Below, piece by piece: positions 52,405-63,953 of a stretch of 64,000 bases of DNA (positions are counted from its first letter, which is position 1; each line of letters opens with the position of its first letter). A program made the translations under genes and the position numbers. Source of the DNA: Woeseiaceae bacterium. Its GTDB lineage: Bacteria > Pseudomonadota > Gammaproteobacteria > Steroidobacterales > Woeseiaceae. The stretch is from assembly GCA_013042375.1 (NCBI GenBank), contig JABDQH010000094.1, positions 19,573 to 83,572 on the forward strand. The letters are read 5' to 3'. Under the pieces are notes generated by a model. That model searched no databases and was not told the origin of the DNA. It worked only from the letters and a program-made list of their open reading frames with translations.

Positions 52405-54387
52405 GTGAACCTCAAGCGCCAGCTGCTCCTCGTCAGCGTGCTGACGCTGATGCTGCCCTGGGCCGGCTGCGAGTTCATCCGCGAAACCGAAGTGGCGCTG
52501 CGGGCGGGCCAGCAGCAGATGCTCGCGGGTCTCGCGCGCGCCATCGCAAGTTCGATGACGCAGCACAGCGACGAGTTCCCGGTGCGCGACGGCATGTTCG
52601 GCGTCGACGACCAGCTCTACGTGCACGAGCTTGACGCCCGCCCGGAGATCGACGGCTATTTCAACGACTGGCCGTTGGGCGAGCCCGCCCTGCGGACCCT
52701 GCGCGGACCGGACGGCCCGGTCCGTTTCGCCGTCGGCAAGTACGGCGGGGCGACCTACCTGTACGTGGAAGTCTCCGACCGGAACGTCGTCTACGGCAGG
52801 GATCGCGTCGTGCTGGCGAGCAGCAACCCACCTTACCTGCGCGAGGCGTTTTTGTTCGCAGCCGAGGCGCCCGGGCGCCTGCTGAGCTACCGACAGACGG
52901 CCAGCGATCCCGAGCCTGTCGCCGAAGCGACGGTCGCGGCCTACTGGCAGGACTATCCGCGCGGCTACCGGCTGGAAGCCCGCATACCCGCGGGTCAACT
53001 CGGTACGCACCTCGGTATCACCGTCGTCGCGGCCGATGATGCAATCGATGGCGGGACGCAGGTCAGCTCGTTCATCGGCCGCTTTCCGGGACCAGCCCGA
53101 GGCGAGATCGCCGAACTGATGCGGATCGCGGCGGAGCGGGTCCAGTCCGACATGCGGTTGATCCTGACCGACGCCGACGGCTGGCGCATCGCGCATGCCG
53201 GTGAACTCGGGCCCGGAAACGGCGGTGGCGACGGGCCGCGCTTCGTCCAGCGCCTCTATGAGTTGTTGCTCGAGAAGGGCGACGAAGCGGCGCTGGCCGA
53301 GCCGCATTCATCCGGCCGCGAACAACAGCCCTACGTAACGGCCGCGTTGCAGGGGCGCGAGAGCGGCGCCTGGTTTCGCAGCACCGAGACCGGCCGCGCG
53401 GTCGTCGCCGTCGCCGCACCCATCATGGATGGCGATCGGACCGTCGGCGCCGTCGTGCTGCAGCAGGGTACCGAGGCGATCCTGAGCCTGACCAACGAGG
53501 GACTGTCGCGCCTGATCTACCTGACCCTGGTCACGACGCTGGTCGTCGCCGGCGTGCTGCTCGGCTACGCGACCTGGCTGTCGCGGCGCATCCGCGCGCT
53601 GTCGGTCGCGGCCGAGGACGCGCTCGAACACGAGGAACTGAACAAGGCGCTGCCGAGCGCGCTCGCCGACGACGAGATCGGCGACCTGTCGCGCAGTTTT
53701 TCGTGGGTGCTCAGGCAACTTGGCGATTACAACGAGTACCTGCGCACGCTCGCCTCGAAACTCTCCCACGAACTGCGCACGCCGCTCGCGATCGTCACGT
53801 CGTCGCTCGAGAACCTCGAGCACGAGTCGCTCGATGAGACCGCACTCGGCTACACGGGGCGCGCCCGAGAAGGCGCGGACCGCCTGCGCAGGATCCTCAA
53901 CGCGATGAGCGAGGCGAGCCGCGTCGAGGAACTCATGAAGGACGCCGAACCGGAGCGCTTCGACCTGCGTGCCGTGCTCGACTCGACGGTCGCGGCTTAC
54001 CGCGACGCCTACGACAATCGCACCTTTGTATTCTCCGGCGACGTCGACGATGCGTTCGTCAAAGGCTCCCCTGAGTTGCTGATCCAGATGCTCGACAAGC
54101 TCGTCGACAATGCCGTCGATTTCTCAGGCAGCGGGGACACCATCGACATCGAGCTCGCGCGCGACAATGACGCCCTCGCGCTGACCGTCACCAACCCCGG
54201 TCCGCCGCTACCCGAACGCATGCGCTCGCAGCTGTTCGATTCGATGGTCTCGATGCGAAGCGGCAAGGACTCGAAGCACCTGGGGTTAGGCCTCTACGTG
54301 GCAAAACTCATCGCCGAAGGGCATGGCGGCACGATCAGCGCCGACAATGTCGAGGGTGGTGTATGCTTCAGAGTCACGATCCCCTGA
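52405..54387 (+). CDS. pdsS: Proteobacterial dedicated sortase system histidine kinase
   Basis: HAMP, LASKLSHELRTPLAIVTSSLENL, HATPase; large periplasmic sensor. Confidence 0.85.
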   Translation: MNLKRQLLLVSVLTLMLPWAGCEFIRETEVALRAGQQQMLAGLARAIASSMTQHSDEFPVRDGMFGVDDQLYVHELDARPEIDGYFNDWPLGEPALRTLRGPDGPVRFAVGKYGGATYLYVEVSDRNVVYGRDRVVLASSNPPYLREAFLFAAEAPGRLLSYRQTASDPEPVAEATVAAYWQDYPRGYRLEARIPAGQLGTHLGITVVAADDAIDGGTQVSSFIGRFPGPARGEIAELMRIAAERVQSDMRLILTDADGWRIAHAGELGPGNGGGDGPRFVQRLYELLLEKGDEAALAEPHSSGREQQPYVTAALQGRESGAWFRSTETGRAVVAVAAPIMDGDRTVGAVVLQQGTEAILSLTNEGLSRLIYLTLVTTLVVAGVLLGYATWLSRRIRALSVAAEDALEHEELNKALPSALADDEIGDLSRSFSWVLRQLGDYNEYLRTLASKLSHELRTPLAIVTSSLENLEHESLDETALGYTGRAREGADRLRRILNAMSEASRVEELMKDAEPERFDLRAVLDSTVAAYRDAYDNRTFVFSGDVDDAFVKGSPELLIQMLDKLVDNAVDFSGSGDTIDIELARDNDALALTVTNPGPPLPERMRSQLFDSMVSMRSGKDSKHLGLGLYVAKLIAEGHGGTISADNVEGGVCFRVTIP

Positions 54388-55663: not shown

Positions 55664-55804
55664 TAGTACGTGCAGTGTTCGCCGCTGCAATGATCGCACA
55701 GGATATCCGCAGGCAGGCTCCGGAACGCGCGGTAACAGCCGGTGGACGCTGAACTTTTTTTTTCGTATGTTTTCTCGCAACGCGTCTCCCCAAGAGCTCC
55801 AATC

Positions 55805-57557: not shown

Positions 57558-58046
57558 CTAATTCGAGAATGCTATTTCGCCGCTATGGGACAACCGGATC
57601 TTGCGCTTGAACGCACCTGGATCGAGCTTGGCATCGAAGCGGTAGTCGAAGCCGTCGCCGTCCTTTTTCATGAGCGAACGGAACAGCTGTATTCCCGCCA
57701 TCAGGTTAAAGCCGGCATTTAGCGTAAACGTGCCTTCGCCGTAACCATCGATCACCGGCAGCTGGTTGCCGACGCCCTTGATCAGTTGCTGGCCGTTCAG
57801 GCTGATCGTATAAGAGACGCCGGCGAGCTCGAGCGGTTCCAGGTTCGGGTTGATGACGTGCAAGATAATTTCGAATCTCGGCAGCCCGCTGCTATCGTCA
57901 GACGCGAGCGGGCGAAACGACTGCACGGATACCGTCGGCGACTCGTATCCGGCGCCCATTCCAGCACACCCGGACAAGAACCAACTGACGGCGAGGAATG
58001 AGGCAGCCAATATGCCCGAACGTGGAATGACTGGTTTTGCTCGCAC
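57558..58046 (-). CDS. LEA type 2 (WHy-domain) family lipoprotein
   Basis: Lipobox WFLSGCAG; FEIILHVINPNLEPLELAGVSYTISLNGQQLIKGVG. Confidence 0.82.
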   Translation of the reverse strand: MRAKPVIPRSGILAASFLAVSWFLSGCAGMGAGYESPTVSVQSFRPLASDDSSGLPRFEIILHVINPNLEPLELAGVSYTISLNGQQLIKGVGNQLPVIDGYGEGTFTLNAGFNLMAGIQLFRSLMKKDGDGFDYRFDAKLDPGAFKRKIRLSHSGEIAFSN

Positions 58047-58053
58047 GGTTGAT

Positions 58054-58242
58054 ACCTGAAGTTAAGCTTACTTGCCGACCAGTGTCTGGCGCTGGGGTTG
58101 CGAATGCAAGCCTCGCGCTCCTTAGCCGGTTCGGCTCGGAACCTGCGACGACCTTCTGCCGGCTGCAGCGCATCGAACACTGACTTCGGCCGAAGTGCCA
58201 GGTGCATCCTGCCAACGAATCATGCCACCTGCGCGGTCAGGT
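58054..58242 (-). repeat. attC-like site A (long, degenerate)
   Basis: ACCTGAAGTTAAGCTTACTTGCCGACCAG...TTGCGAATGCAA...GTCAGGT; stop codon of 58237-58740 gene inside the right-hand box. Confidence 0.5.
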
Positions 58243-58740
58243 GCCATTTCGCATGCCCTCCACGAGCAGCGAGTTTTCCTGATGCCTTTGCTCATCCTGA
58301 TCGCGCTGATGTGCAACTTCCCGGACCTTTTGAGTATATCGGTCCGGGAAGCCATGAAACTCACACCCCAGGAGCACCATCGCTTTGTACCAGGTGTATG
58401 AAATCAGTGTAGGTTCAATATGCGAATCAATCGCTTTGTAGGCCCAGCAGCCACCTACACCGGGTACAGCAATTTGCATTTCATCGTATCCGATGCCGAG
58501 ACCCTCAACCTTGTCCAGAAGAGGCTTTTCTTTCAGCAGGATTTCGAAGACCGCCACATGGATCTCACCGGCAGCCGCGACAATGTCACATTTTGCAGAA
58601 CCATCAACGCTTCTCTTATGAAAGTGCAGATCGAACCCCGGGACTCTCGCGGTATCGATAAGTTTCGCCGACGGAACTCTCCTGACGAGGCGCGTCGGGT
58701 GCAGGTTGCTTCCGTATGCTGCGTATAGGTAGGTCGTCAT
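58237..58740 (-). CDS. Gamma-glutamylcyclotransferase-family protein (cassette gene)
   Basis: YLYAAYGSNLHPTRLVRRVPSA; lies between attC-like sites A and B. Confidence 0.88.
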   Translation of the reverse strand: MTTYLYAAYGSNLHPTRLVRRVPSAKLIDTARVPGFDLHFHKRSVDGSAKCDIVAAAGEIHVAVFEILLKEKPLLDKVEGLGIGYDEMQIAVPGVGGCWAYKAIDSHIEPTLISYTWYKAMVLLGCEFHGFPDRYTQKVREVAHQRDQDEQRHQENSLLVEGMRNGT

Positions 58741-58743
58741 GAC

Positions 58744-58849
58744 ACCTGACATTAAGCTGAATTGCGACAAGTATCTGGCGCGGCGGTTACGCAGGCAAGG
58801 GCCGTGACAGATATCCCGGAGACCCAGTGCGGGGCTTGCTCGGTTGCGC
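58744..58849 (-). repeat. attC-like site B
   Basis: ACCTGACATTAAGCTGAATTGCGACAAGTATCTGGCGCGGCGGTTACGCAGGCAAGGGCCGTGACAGATATCC...GTTGCGC. Confidence 0.75.
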
Positions 58850-58850
58850 T

Positions 58851-59273
58851 TTACTCCTGGCCCTCCGGGTCTCTAATAACGATGCGTCCAAGCTGGGACA
58901 GCGGAATCTTACTGAGGTAGCTAATCGAAGGTTTCTTCAATACCGCCAGGAACCCATCAGGTGATTCCTCGAGCCAAATGACCTCCCATCGCTCATTGCC
59001 GTACTCATTGAGCTGAGATTCAAGATCTTCGGGCGACGAATAAGAAAGATTGATCACCCGATACTCCCAGTCACCAATGTTCTCGAGGTCCTCTGCTGCC
59101 CAGTCGACAGGAATATCGACCTTGTCTTTGACCAGCTCATCGTACTTGCTTTGCAGCTCGTCGAGGGCGCGTTGGGCAGCAGACGGTTCCTGTGACTCGT
59201 TTTCGCAACCGGACAGCAGGTGGCTAAGAAGAACTGCTCCCACTAACAAGACGACCCGGTTTCCATAGACCAT
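58851..59273 (-). CDS. Hypothetical lipoprotein (cassette gene)
   Basis: Lipobox HLLSGCEN; stop two bases from site B; WEYRVINLSYSSPEDLESQLNEYGNERWEVI resembles DUF4177-like fold. Confidence 0.7.
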   Translation of the reverse strand: MVYGNRVVLLVGAVLLSHLLSGCENESQEPSAAQRALDELQSKYDELVKDKVDIPVDWAAEDLENIGDWEYRVINLSYSSPEDLESQLNEYGNERWEVIWLEESPDGFLAVLKKPSISYLSKIPLSQLGRIVIRDPEGQE

Positions 59274-59284
59274 CGTTCTGCGCT

Positions 59285-59386
59285 ACCTGACGTTAAGCTA
59301 ACTTGCGAACAGTATCTGGTGGCTTTCTTGCGGATGCAAGAAGGATGAAAGATGCGTGGGAGACCAGGTGCAGCGTCTTGTTAGTT
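59285..59386 (-). repeat. attC-like site C
   Basis: ACCTGACGTTAAGCTAACTTGCGAACAGTATCTGGTGGCTTTCTTGCGGATGCAAGAAGG...GCAGCGTCTTGTTAGTT. Confidence 0.85.
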
Positions 59387-59391
59387 GCCGT

Positions 59392-59718
59392 TTACGACAA
59401 TCTGGAAGACACCAACCGATTGAGGCTGACCCCAGCTTCGGCTGCCCGGAGCACGAGCATCCGATGTACTTCGGGAGGAACTCGTACCATGAATTTGCCA
59501 CTGTATGGCCGAGTTGAAATTGGCTGGGGCACCGTCTCCTTGCTTCGCTCCAGATCTTCGACCGTATCGGCTACCAGCTTTCGGACGCCGACCAAAGCCT
59601 TCTCTTGCGATTTGTCCAACCAGCTCAGGCTTGGGAATTCCGCACACAATCCGACGTACTCCTGATCCTCTTCGGACCAGGTAACACGATAGGTATACCG
59701 ATCTACTTTCTTAGCCAT
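59392..59718 (-). CDS. hicB: HicB-family antitoxin (cassette gene)
   Basis: YRVTWSEEDQEYVGLCAEFPSLSWLDKSQEKALVGVRKLV, C-terminal RHH-like SGKFMVRVPPEVHRMLVLRAAEAGVSLNRLVSSRLS. Confidence 0.92.
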   Translation of the reverse strand: MAKKVDRYTYRVTWSEEDQEYVGLCAEFPSLSWLDKSQEKALVGVRKLVADTVEDLERSKETVPQPISTRPYSGKFMVRVPPEVHRMLVLRAAEAGVSLNRLVSSRLS

Positions 59719-59837
59719 CACTACTCTCTAGTCGGTAGTTTGCCAAAATAATGATCGCAGACTTTGGTGAGCTCGTTGAAGCGAATCCCTTTCGGATTGC
59801 ACCGCATCTTCGCCAGAATGTCCTCGATCGAAGCCAT
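59711..59837 (-). pseudogene. hicA: hicA toxin remnant, out-of-frame internal deletion
   Basis: Start-frame MASIEDILAKMRCNPKGIRFNELTKVCDHYFGKLPTRE* ; other frame RLESSDG* overlaps hicB ATG; middle part missing. Confidence 0.8.
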
Positions 59838-59908
59838 TCGAGAATGGTATCAATAATGATACTATTACGGAATGCGAGAATCTAGAGGTTTCGCCGAGGA
59901 ATGGCGGT

Positions 59909-60009
59909 AACTAGCGTTAAGCTAACTTGTCACCAGTGTCCGGCGCGGGGGTTGCGAATGCAAGCCCTGTGACAGACAGCCAAGGAACAAGTGCAGCGCC
60001 TTGTTAGGC
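59909..60009 (-). repeat. attC-like site D
   Basis: GTTAAGCTAACTTGTCACCAGTGTCCGGCGCGGGGGTTGCGAATGCAAGCCCTGTGACAGACAGCC...GTGCAGCGCCTTGTTAGGC. Confidence 0.85.
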
Positions 60010-60114
60010 TGCATTGCGCGACATTCCGAATGACCGCTTCTTCCCAGACCAGTCATTCGCGTCACTGAAAATCGAGCAAATCGAAGGGCCGCAAACGGCC
60101 AAAAGCGGACGTCG

Positions 60115-60892
60115 CTACTCGGCGGAGATCACGGTATGCAAGCCATCTAATGCCGTGCTGGTATCAATCACAATGCGATGCTCGCCGTCAGTATCCGAGT
60201 AAGTCAGCTCGATCGTTTTCGGCGATGGCGCAATCGGAAAGAACATATCCAAAGCAATCTCTTCGCCTGCTACGAGATTCACCGGCAGTGCTGTCTGGCG
60301 CGACTTAATAACACCGTTGACCTTGCTTTGGTTTACACCACGCATTACACCGCCAATGGCGAGAACTGGAGCCAGCACCATCCCGCCCACAACGATAGCC
60401 CCGCTGGTTGCTCCAACAAAAGACCCGGCCCCCATCGCGGCTCCGACTCCCGCGCCTGTCGCTGTTACAGCTGCGACTTTCATGGTCCCTCTACCCGAAC
60501 CCGCTTCCACTTCGATGCCTGATTTCTTGTAGCGACGGGCGGTTTCCTTGCTGCTCTTGACGAGCTGTTTTCGGTCAGCTACTGATTCAGTCGGCATGCC
60601 GAGCGAATCCACAACAATTAGCCGAATTATCCGTACCGGTTGATCCGATTCGCTCTTAACTCTCAGCAAATATTCGTCCCAGCCGGCCTTTCTGGACCAG
60701 GTTCCTGGACCGTCTCGAACAATCACCCAGTCGAGCGCGACGGAGAGTCTCTGATCAGACGCAGCTGCCAGTGGTTGCGTGGCTACAATCGGTTCAGATT
60801 CCTTTAGAACCTTACTACCACCACAAGCAGACAGGGCGATGAGAAAAAAGAGGGCGCCATATTGATACAATAATCTCTTCATAGCGTCACTC
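60115..60892 (-). CDS. Hypothetical lipoprotein with glycine-rich hydrophobic segment (cassette gene)
   Basis: MKRLLYQYGALFFLIALSACGG lipobox; GAGVGAAMGAGSFVGATSGAIVVGGMVLAPVLAIGG. Confidence 0.7.
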
Positions 60893-61076
60893 GCTTGGCA
60901 GGGTGTGCCGATAATAGGCGCGATCACCATTACTGAGCGGCGTTGAGATTTATGTCAATTCGGGAAGGTACGTAATTTTCGCTTTGGGTCATTTGCAGTC
61001 GTCGAACATCGTAACATCTGGCCGGCCAGTTTCCGGTGCATAGCGGACGTTCGAAGTTAGCGGAGACCTCTCTGCT

Positions 61077-61178
61077 GCCTAACGTTAAGCTAACTTGCGA
61101 CCAGAATCTGGCGCGGCCGTTGCGCATGCAAGGGCCGTGACAGATAGTCAGGCGGCACAGTGCAGCGCCTTGTTAGGC
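61077..61178 (-). repeat. attC-like site E (best-conserved copy)
   Basis: GCCTAACGTTAAGCTAACTTGCGACCAGAATCTGGCGCGGCCGTTGCGCATGCAAGGGCCGTGACAGATAGTCAGGCGGCACAGTGCAGCGCCTTGTTAGGC. Confidence 0.92.
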
Positions 61179-61574
61179 GGCGCTTCCACGAATAGCCGCT
61201 GCGATGATGAGCCCACCTAGTACCAAGGAGCACAACCCAATCAGCGTGATGTACCGAGTTGCCCGAGGTACGACGTATTGCGCGAACCGTTGATGCCACC
61301 GCCAGGGTAGGAGGAAAAGACATGCACTGGTGATAATGAGGGCCCAGCCAAAGGCGGTAAAAACCGCTGTGGCGAACATTCGAGGCGCATAGATGACAAG
61401 AGACCACCCGACCAGTAGACGAATGAGAAGTTCGATGTAATGGGCGCGTTGAGAGCTGGCAAAGCCCAGTAGAAATCGACTGCTCTCAGCCGGCATCGTC
61501 AACGAAGTCACGGCAAAGACGCAGAAGTACAAACCAGCGAGGACGACAACCGAGAGCGCCAATACTTCAGTCAT
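61173..61574 (-). CDS. Hypothetical 4-TM membrane protein (cassette gene)
   Basis: Hydrophobic segments; TAA stop inside attC box GCCTAAC of site E. Confidence 0.75.
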   Translation of the reverse strand: MTEVLALSVVVLAGLYFCVFAVTSLTMPAESSRFLLGFASSQRAHYIELLIRLLVGWSLVIYAPRMFATAVFTAFGWALIITSACLFLLPWRWHQRFAQYVVPRATRYITLIGLCSLVLGGLIIAAAIRGSAA

Positions 61575-61593
61575 TGGCAGTGGATGGCGCGCC

Positions 61594-61695
61594 GCCCAAC
61601 GTTAAGCCAACTTGCGACCAGTACCTGGCAGCCTTCTTGCGAAAGCAAGAACGATGACAGATAGGCAGGAGGCTACATGCAGCGCCTTGTCAGGT
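61594..61695 (-). repeat. attC-like site F
   Basis: GCCCAACGTTAAGCCAACTTGCGACCAGTACCTGGCAGCCTTCTTGCGAAAGCAAGAACGATGACAGATAGG...GCAGCGCCTTGTCAGGT. Confidence 0.88.
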
Positions 61696-62094
61696 GGCTT
61701 CAAAGAAACTCCTAACGTTGGGCTTGGCGTAGAGATACCACACGACGAGTCCGCTCACGGCAACTACGAGCGGCAATTCTATGTAGCGCTGGCGTAAAAC
61801 AACTGCCATCAGAAGTAGCACAAGTAGCAACGCCAAGAAAAAATGTCGGGCGATCGATTTGCCGCGCCACAACCCTACACCGACGTACGCCGTGAAAACA
61901 GTCCAGGCAATCAGCACCGCTAGAAGTTTGTAGCGAACGTCTCCGATCAGCATCGAATCACCAATTAACTGCAAGGTGCTTTCAGGAGTCGCGAGAATCG
62001 TGACAAAAATTGGGATAAGAAGTAAGCAAGCCTTGAATACGACCAACAGGACGAAAACCGATACAAGAAATGGTCTTTTCGGATTACCGAGCAA
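61690..62094 (-). CDS. Hypothetical 4-TM membrane protein (cassette gene)
   Basis: Hydrophobic segments; TGA stop inside box ACCTGAC of site F. Confidence 0.72.
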   Translation of the reverse strand: MLGNPKRPFLVSVFVLLVVFKACLLLIPIFVTILATPESTLQLIGDSMLIGDVRYKLLAVLIAWTVFTAYVGVGLWRGKSIARHFFLALLLVLLLMAVVLRQRYIELPLVVAVSGLVVWYLYAKPNVRSFFEAT

Positions 62095-62105
62095 TTTGGA
62101 AAGCC

Positions 62106-62206
62106 ACCTAACGTTTAGCTAACTTGATCTCAGCTTACGGCGCGAAGCTTGCTCGCTGCAAGCTTCGTGACGGAAGCCAGGACACAAGTGCAGCGCCTTG
62201 TTAGGC
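62106..62206 (-). repeat. attC-like site G
   Basis: ACCTAACGTTTAGCTAACTTGATCTCAGCTTACGGCGCGAAGCTTGCTCGCTGCAAGCTTCGTGACGGAAGCC...GTGCAGCGCCTTGTTAGGC. Confidence 0.9.
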
Positions 62207-62281
62207 ACAATATGGGCAATTTATTAACATTGGTAAAAGAGGGCACGGAGGGACTATTTCAAAATCAACAAATAAGGTTGT

Positions 62282-63265
62282 TCAGTAATAAAACGCCCCG
62301 TCTCTTTTTTGCATCCGTCGACGCTTAGGGTATTGCAGCAACCAGTTATATACATCATCACCCGCATACACCCTGTTCCAGACATCATGCGACATGTCCT
62401 GTTCGGTGGTGAATCGTATCGTCGCGCCGAGTTCATCCATCCTGTTCATGCCCGCGAAGAAGTACTTCGTCTCGACAGTAGGATCTCTTCCGCCTGAGAA
62501 GATCCATACGGGGATATCCGCTTTGGCAACTGCCTCTGCCTGTTCGACAGATGGATAACCGACAACAGGTAAGAGTGCAGCGAATCGTTCAGGATACACG
62601 CTGGAGTAGTGCCAGATGCCGAAAGCGCCTTCGCTCGCGCCTGTCAGATAGACCCGGTCAGCATCGGCGTTATACGTCTTGAGTATCGAATCCAGTATGT
62701 TGATGACATCGGGGTCAGTTCGCTTCCAGCCGAACTTGTTATCGTAATCCGTGTAGTCAGGTAATAATTCATCTGCCACAGCTCCTTGCATTGGTCCGAA
62801 GATTTGTAATGCCGGCATATCTGTATTGTGTGGTGGCGTGCCTTCTTCCAGTCTTCCTGGAATTCCCTCTTTAGTGCGGTTGAGGATATATGAAGGTCCA
62901 TCTGGACCATCTCTTCCGAACATATGAAGCTGTGGGACGATCAGGATAAATGGCATATCCTTCTTCTGAACCCAGGCTTCGTATAGCGGACCATAAGCCA
63001 TGACATAATCAAGTTCTTCTTTGCCATCACCGCGCTCACCATCGCCGTGAAGATATATCATAACCGGCCAATTATGAGACGAGTCATCATCGTATCCTCT
63101 GGGAAGATAGATATAGGCATCTCGCTCTAGGTTATCGACGAAACTGGTATATGTGTGGCGCAGGAGTTGCTCTTCAGACAAGCTGTCGGGACTGTTTGTG
63201 TGCGAATCTTGGGGTGTGCCGCAACCGACGAGCAGGGCGATGAGGAAGATGGTTAGAGATCTCAT
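62282..63265 (-). CDS. Lipoprotein alpha/beta-hydrolase, PHB depolymerase/esterase-like (cassette gene)
   Basis: Lipobox ALLVGCGT; MIYLHGDGERGD; nucleophile elbow LTGASEGAFG; conserved PVWIFSGGRDPTV. Confidence 0.85.
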   Translation of the reverse strand: MRSLTIFLIALLVGCGTPQDSHTNSPDSLSEEQLLRHTYTSFVDNLERDAYIYLPRGYDDDSSHNWPVMIYLHGDGERGDGKEELDYVMAYGPLYEAWVQKKDMPFILIVPQLHMFGRDGPDGPSYILNRTKEGIPGRLEEGTPPHNTDMPALQIFGPMQGAVADELLPDYTDYDNKFGWKRTDPDVINILDSILKTYNADADRVYLTGASEGAFGIWHYSSVYPERFAALLPVVGYPSVEQAEAVAKADIPVWIFSGGRDPTVETKYFFAGMNRMDELGATIRFTTEQDMSHDVWNRVYAGDDVYNWLLQYPKRRRMQKRDGAFYY

Positions 63266-63319
63266 TGTCTGGTCTACTTTTGCTTTTGTAATTTTGTGTT
63301 CATTCTTTCTCTCCCGCGT

Positions 63320-63372
63320 GCCTGACGTTCAGCTAACTTGCGACCAGTATTTAGTGCAGCGCCTTGTTAGGC
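63320..63372 (-). repeat. attC-like site H, internally shortened (53 bp)
   Basis: GCCTGACGTTCAGCTAACTTGCGACCAGTATTTAGTGCAGCGCCTTGTTAGGC; both ends present, central hairpin missing. Confidence 0.8.
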
Positions 63373-63846
63373 CACATTTTTTCTCCGTCGCCAGCGCGCT
63401 GAGTCCAGGTATTTGGACAGTTCAGCAAGTATGAAGCGGCAGGCCGCTTCGTTGCGCACGAAGGTTATTCCGAAGCCCAGGGCCACTATTCCCGCGAGTA
63501 AGGTGACAAACCAGCCAGTCCGGACATAGACCAGCGGCAACGAAGCGAAAACTAGGACTGATAGAACCAGAAAAATCGTGTTCGGAAAGTAGGCGTATCC
63601 AAACTCGACTCTCACAACGGTCCTTCCGTACTCGACCGTCACCAACCCGTTTCCGACCGGTGCGCCGCCCATTCCAGCATTTTGAGAGATTTGAAACTGG
63701 TCCCCAGTGACACGAGTGTAGGTACGATGCAGAGACGCGCCGGCGATCGGACCGGCCGCAAAATCCGATCCCCGCTCCTTCGGCATTTTCTTAATTGCAG
63801 CGAGGACGGACGATTTCGATTGCGCGAGAACGGCTTCGAAAACCAA
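63367..63846 (-). CDS. Hypothetical membrane protein, about 2 TM (cassette gene)
   Basis: TAA stop inside box GCCTAAC of site H; hydrophobic segments FPNTIFLVLSVLVFASLPLVYV, WFVTLLAGIVALGFGITFV. Confidence 0.7.
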   Translation of the reverse strand: MVFEAVLAQSKSSVLAAIKKMPKERGSDFAAGPIAGASLHRTYTRVTGDQFQISQNAGMGGAPVGNGLVTVEYGRTVVRVEFGYAYFPNTIFLVLSVLVFASLPLVYVRTGWFVTLLAGIVALGFGITFVRNEAACRFILAELSKYLDSARWRRRKNVA

Positions 63847-63851
63847 ATGGG

Positions 63852-63953
63852 GCCTGAAGTTAAGCTAACTTGCGACCAGTATCTGGCGCGGCCGTTGCGG
63901 ATGCGAGGGCCGTGACAGATAGCCAGGAGACACAGTGCAGCGCCTTGTTATCC
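63852..63953 (-). repeat. attC-like site I
   Basis: GCCTGAAGTTAAGCTAACTTGCGACCAGTATCTGGCGCGGCCGTTGCGGATGCGAGGGCCGTGACAGATAGCCAGGAGACACAGTGCAGCGCCTTGTTATCC. Confidence 0.88.

Follow-up and report, generated by a model that had tools for sequence, protein, structure and literature searches.

Near one end of the 64-kb window analysed here (the whole stretch of DNA under study, bases 19573-83572 of contig C30), nine related imperfect palindromes alternate with small genes and no integrase is in view. This raises the question of whether they form an integron and, if so, where its integrase gene (intI) has gone. The host is a Woeseiaceae metagenome-assembled genome (MAG) of 2.76 Mb (120 contigs, 84% complete), whose closest relatives by acyl-CoA dehydrogenase are mostly Woeseiaceae MAGs; the flank protein at 55742, compared with genome contigs, brought up no relatives.

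A repeat search and a covariance model (R1) both recovered all nine repeats as attC sites on the plus strand of the 64-kb window (Table 1), in agreement with the positions and identity given to them in an earlier note made from the DNA alone. Since the Rfam search returned no match in the window, the model was built from the window's own sites and trained on six of them plus one site of contig C83. The six trained sites had E-values of 5e-26 to 2e-33, and R1 also found the three outside the training set (58744, 63320 and 58054). With the opposite strand of two sites set aside, the next best match in the 64 kb had an E-value of 0.48. Because the cassette genes lie on the minus strand, the plus strand corresponds to the attC bottom strand. 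In coding orientation the sites run GCCTAACAAGGCGCTGCA ... GCAAGTTAGCTTAACGTTAGGC, their R'' and R' boxes conform to RYYYAAC/GTTRRRY, and GCCTAAC ... GTTAGGC or close variants stand at the ends of seven window sites. The earlier description of the palindromes holds, with the qualification that 63320 measures only 53 bp and that the two leftmost sites (58054 and 58744) are degenerate at R''.

Table 1. Features of the cassette array and its distal flank (window coordinates; E and bits from model R1 unless another source is named)
Feature	Position	Strand	Evidence
Sensor-kinase gene, conserved distal flank of the locus	52405..54387	+	synteny in relatives
LEA_2 lipoprotein gene	57558..58046	-	Pfam LEA_2 8e-11; starts 7 bp from last attC
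attC-like site, degenerate, distal end of array	58054..58160	+	26.9 bits, E 1.1e-5, untrained
AIG2/GGACT-like cassette gene, 167 aa	58237..58740	-	Pfam AIG2_2 and GGACT below cut-off
attC site, R'' degenerate	58744..58845	+	57.2 bits, E 2.9e-15, untrained
lipo3, small lipoprotein cassette gene	58851..59273	-	77% identical gene near array end in G097 and G035
attC site	59285..59386	+	97.6 bits
hicB cassette gene	59392..59721	-	Pfam HicB 1.1e-14; 83% identical cassette in L122 (G060)
Truncated hicA reading frame, 38 codons	59721..59837	-	translation; family by eye
attC site	59909..60009	+	104.9 bits
Lipoprotein-like cassette gene, 271 aa	60115..60930	-	no family found in profile search
attC site	61077..61178	+	114.9 bits; fold z -3.8
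TM6, DUF2065-like membrane protein	61173..61574	-	Pfam 23.3 bits, just below cut-off; stop inside R''
attC site	61594..61695	+	93.2 bits
TM7, membrane protein cassette gene	61690..62094	-	stop inside R''
attC site	62106..62206	+	91.3 bits; fold z -5.3
PHB-depolymerase-like hydrolase (esterase) cassette	62282..63265	-	NCBIfam NF050058 1.3e-13, below cut-off; start common to C83
53-bp attC without most of the terminal hairpin	63320..63372	+	40.7 bits, E 4.9e-10, untrained
TM9, membrane protein cassette gene	63367..63846	-	stop inside R''
attC site; further cassette gene ends inside and runs off contig	63852..63953	+	108.6 bits; translation ...QEIFEIMMHKGERDG*

The consensus fold comprises 33 pairs, of which six, mostly in the inner hairpin, are changed on both sides; the outer pairs vary little and therefore say little about structure. 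Full attC sites fold better as DNA than their dinucleotide shuffles (z -2.3 in addition to the two values in Table 1, and -3.0 for the C83 site), and the 53-bp site folds no better than its shuffles (z +0.25). The window sites thus share a conserved fold of the single strand in which the terminal hairpin varies, except for the fold of the 53-bp site, which is short by about 50 bp of terminal hairpin. The same cassette boundary carries a full 102-bp version on contig C83 (L014:10158-10259), and the 53-bp copy on C30 looks like the product of a terminal-hairpin deletion. A filter-off search beyond the LEA_2 gene yielded no convincing attC, and of seven relatives examined by way of locus handles, five gave no attC match. 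A connection to plasmid integrons found no support, as one attC compared with plasmids by blastn had no match.

Each interval between sites holds one small gene on the minus strand, as the earlier note had described, and in every case the attC lies in a single orientation on the 3' side of the gene. Stop codons fall -6 to +105 bp from R'', and those of TM6, TM7 and TM9 lie within it. Small minus-strand genes each with a 3' attC and stops in R'' represent the gene-cassette layout. Four cassette families were found (HicB, AIG2-like, DUF2065-like and PHB-depolymerase-like hydrolase), the last three below curated cut-offs; the remaining products are membrane proteins or lipoproteins, judged by sequence. 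The proposed GGCT-family gene matches AIG2_2 and GGACT, below the Pfam cut-off, and has a relative of 45% identity as a cassette in L122 (the G060 array). The hicAB pair seen previously stands for hicB and fails for hicA, whose frame is cut to 38 codons by a stop codon. This hicA-like frame ends before the conserved C-terminal part, and the adjoining hicB is intact. Among the cassettes of the window PADLOC detected no defence protein; its only match was the HicA of C83, to a HicA-like model. The LEA_2 gene next to the last attC is possibly a terminal cassette without its own attC, or part of the flank. LEA-type lipoprotein genes flank the locus on both sides, the other lying by gltB at L014:2704-3192; the two may be distant paralogues, and both match the same place in L038.

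Outside C30, a single attC was found in the assembly. It lies on C83, 76 bases from the contig end, between hicAB and the start of the esterase gene, and the order on this contig is gltB-gltD-GFA-hicAB-attC-esterase start. Around the start of the esterase cassette C30 and C83 are identical at 113 of 117 bases. The gene is preceded on C30 by the TM9 cassette and the shortened attC, and on C83 by hicAB and the full attC, so the assembly holds two arrangements, either two haplotypes or a repeated cassette. Because relatives carry these flanks around an array or an empty site, we infer that C30 and C83 are, in matching orientation, the two flanks of one array. With the array split over two contigs of an 84% complete MAG, its middle part may hold further cassettes.

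The earlier note had expected intI, if present, to the right of the window. This was not borne out: contig C30 stops exactly where the window stops, and on the C83 flank neither intI nor attI lies beside GFA, where no GTTRRRY core was seen by eye between GFA and hicA. Elsewhere in the MAG no integron integrase was found, as TIGR02249 gave only XerC- or XerD-like matches below its cut-off. The window's genome therefore shows neither an intI beside the array nor an attI, the two marks of a complete integron. Within this draft assembly, nine attC sites on C30 and one on C83 without any integron integrase found constitute a cluster of attC sites lacking an integrase (CALIN), and the reading as a chromosomal integron array or CALIN is supported.

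The course of events can be followed in relatives. In G097 (CALZJH010000008.1) a single 248-kb contig carries gltB, gltD, GFA, ORF171, about 15 attC sites, a lipo3 relative and the sensor-kinase gene, and G035 (SHLT01 MAG) and G079 have the same flanks, but on separate contigs. In seven further relatives (L033, L035, L040, L044, L070, L072 and L076) gltD faces the kinase gene with at most 15 bp between the aligned regions, an arrangement that, by its gene order, is read as the empty site. G035 encodes an intact IntI (TIGR02249, 448 bits against a cut-off of 265); here GFA is followed by the 171-aa ORF171, then by intI, tail to tail with ORF171, and then by AATTAACGTTAGGC, an attI-like core. 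G079 has intI at the same place, short by about 88 bp and out of frame. At this place G097 is without intI; directly after its ORF171 stands an apparent cassette remnant, and attC comes next. The window's genome has only a short remnant of ORF171, about 13 codons, before the hicAB cassette: of the first 41 bases after GFA, 28 are identical between C83 and G079 (maximum 24 in 100,000 shuffles), and the identity then falls to background. Because ORF171 breaks off near codon 13 and runs into hicAB, it is most likely that a deletion removed intI and attI and that they do not simply lie beyond the 64 kb. The ORF171 family (L109:9418-9933, L143:12575-13081, L120:1102-1617) has no Pfam match; its members adjoin intI in G035, G079 and G058 and lie beyond the far array end in G060 and G048.

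Cassette presence and absence across relatives, a comparison suggested in the earlier note, differs almost completely at this one place. The only window cassette gene found in the G097, G035 and G079 arrays is lipo3, common to G097 and G035, in a count from which tblastx matches of about 45 aa between arrays were left out, as they fall mostly on attC sites. The G060 array contains relatives of hicB (83%), TM6 (53%) and AIG2 (45%), with hicB before TM6 in G060 and after it in the window, a difference that fits reshuffling from a shared pool.

Taken together, these observations very probably reflect a sedentary chromosomal integron, located between gltB-gltD-GFA and the sensor-kinase gene, that was left as a CALIN by deletion of intI and attI. 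That the CALIN arose by integrase loss is argued by the intact or broken intI of relatives at that place. The living strain could instead still possess intI, either on another haplotype or between C30 and C83, in sequence that was not assembled or not binned. CALINs are overstated in draft assemblies, where attC sites break contigs (PMC9024848), the esterase cassette has different neighbours on C30 and C83, and the contigs of several relatives also end beside intI. We nevertheless regard a surviving intI as unlikely, since in both intI-bearing relatives with the locus the gene lies directly beside GFA-ORF171, a region that C83 reads through without intI.

It is also improbable, and slightly more so, that this lineage never had an intI here and that an integrase elsewhere inserted cassettes off target. 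Such insertion has been proposed as one way in which CALINs arise (PMC8618304), and ORF171 relatives occur away from intI too; however, G035 and G079 have intI or its remnant at this very place, and the beginning of ORF171, which borders intI in both, survives in the window's genome. As imperfect palindromes between unrelated small genes, the repeats themselves could be taken for REP-like elements or terminators, a reading made scarcely credible by their RYYYAAC/GTTRRRY ends, their fixed orientation 3' of each gene with stops inside R'', and the occurrence of the same site family beside intact intI in relatives.

Under loss of the integrase from a sedentary integron, the window array would be the distal part of an integron at a fixed Woeseiaceae locus. 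Integrase recombination of the folded attC bottom strand has been shown for other integrons, and the cassettes here would have been gathered in the same way. A deletion that began near codon 13 of ORF171 and reached as far as the hicAB cassette, or into it, would then have removed intI and attI. The array could presumably no longer be changed by its own integrase; an integrase supplied in trans would be required for excision or exchange, and the cassette genes would have to rely on promoters of their own or on nearby ones.

Of 107 genomes of the family, 18 matched TIGR02249 with an E-value of at most 1e-60, 16 of them above the cut-off, and 39 matched the attC model. At least two attC sites were present in 35 genomes, 18 of them without an intI match (eight of these at least 95% complete), counts that rest on MAGs, where some intI breaks may be assembly errors. 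CALIN counts are also inflated in draft assemblies, whose contigs break at attC sites that resemble one another (PMC9024848). G058 and G060, too, have broken intI copies, and the inactivation routes would comprise whole-gene losses with different end points (G000, G097), internal deletions (G079, G058, G060) and an IS3-type insertion (G059). The intI genes of G079, G058 and G060 (L120:201-1105, L121:9029-9960 and L122:9480-10360) carry three different deletions, all within one stretch at around residues 205-255 of IntI from G035, although a hot spot cannot be claimed from three cases. In G059 (L119:1731-3613) an IS3-type transposase pair, identified by eye, directly precedes an intI that lacks roughly the first 100 residues; after it comes a tryptophanyl-tRNA synthetase-like gene, which indicates another chromosomal place. 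Only tentatively can it be suggested, as a rather doubtful generalization, that intI loss in Woeseiaceae is recurrent and favoured, with an active integron building arrays that separate intI inactivations then freeze.

A close parallel is found in Xanthomonas, where integrons at the ilvD locus keep a fixed place, their intI is repeatedly inactivated, often by truncation or deletion, and their lineage-variable arrays contain mostly unknown genes (PMC12444791). A LEA-family protein has been reported from a cassette there (PMC12444791), and the window has its LEA_2 gene by the last attC. The present system differs in its family, in its locus (gltBD-GFA to sensor kinase) and in losses seen across species-level MAGs rather than strains. 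Like the sedentary chromosomal integrons of Vibrio, it combines many similar attC sites in one array with toxin-antitoxin cassettes, but the window array is far smaller and its integrase is missing. A 2008 survey classed roughly one in three intI genes as pseudogenes, compared with only 4% in Vibrio (PMC2426708). The array agrees with the IntegronFinder definition of a CALIN, two or more attC sites with no intI next to them (PMC9024848), and intI loss is one of three proposed routes to this state (PMC8618304).

The kind of system is thus already known, and the Woeseiaceae array is a new and unusually clear example of it in another family. Neither Woeseia nor integron occurred in the title of any paper returned by one literature search that combined the two. 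For most CALINs nothing is known beyond an array that lacks an integrase. Here one and the same locus occurs as an empty site, as an intact integron, with a disrupted integrase gene and after loss of that gene, so that, unlike in a typical CALIN, the route through intI deletion can be read directly from relatives at the same place, and integrons are documented in the largely uncultured family Woeseiaceae.
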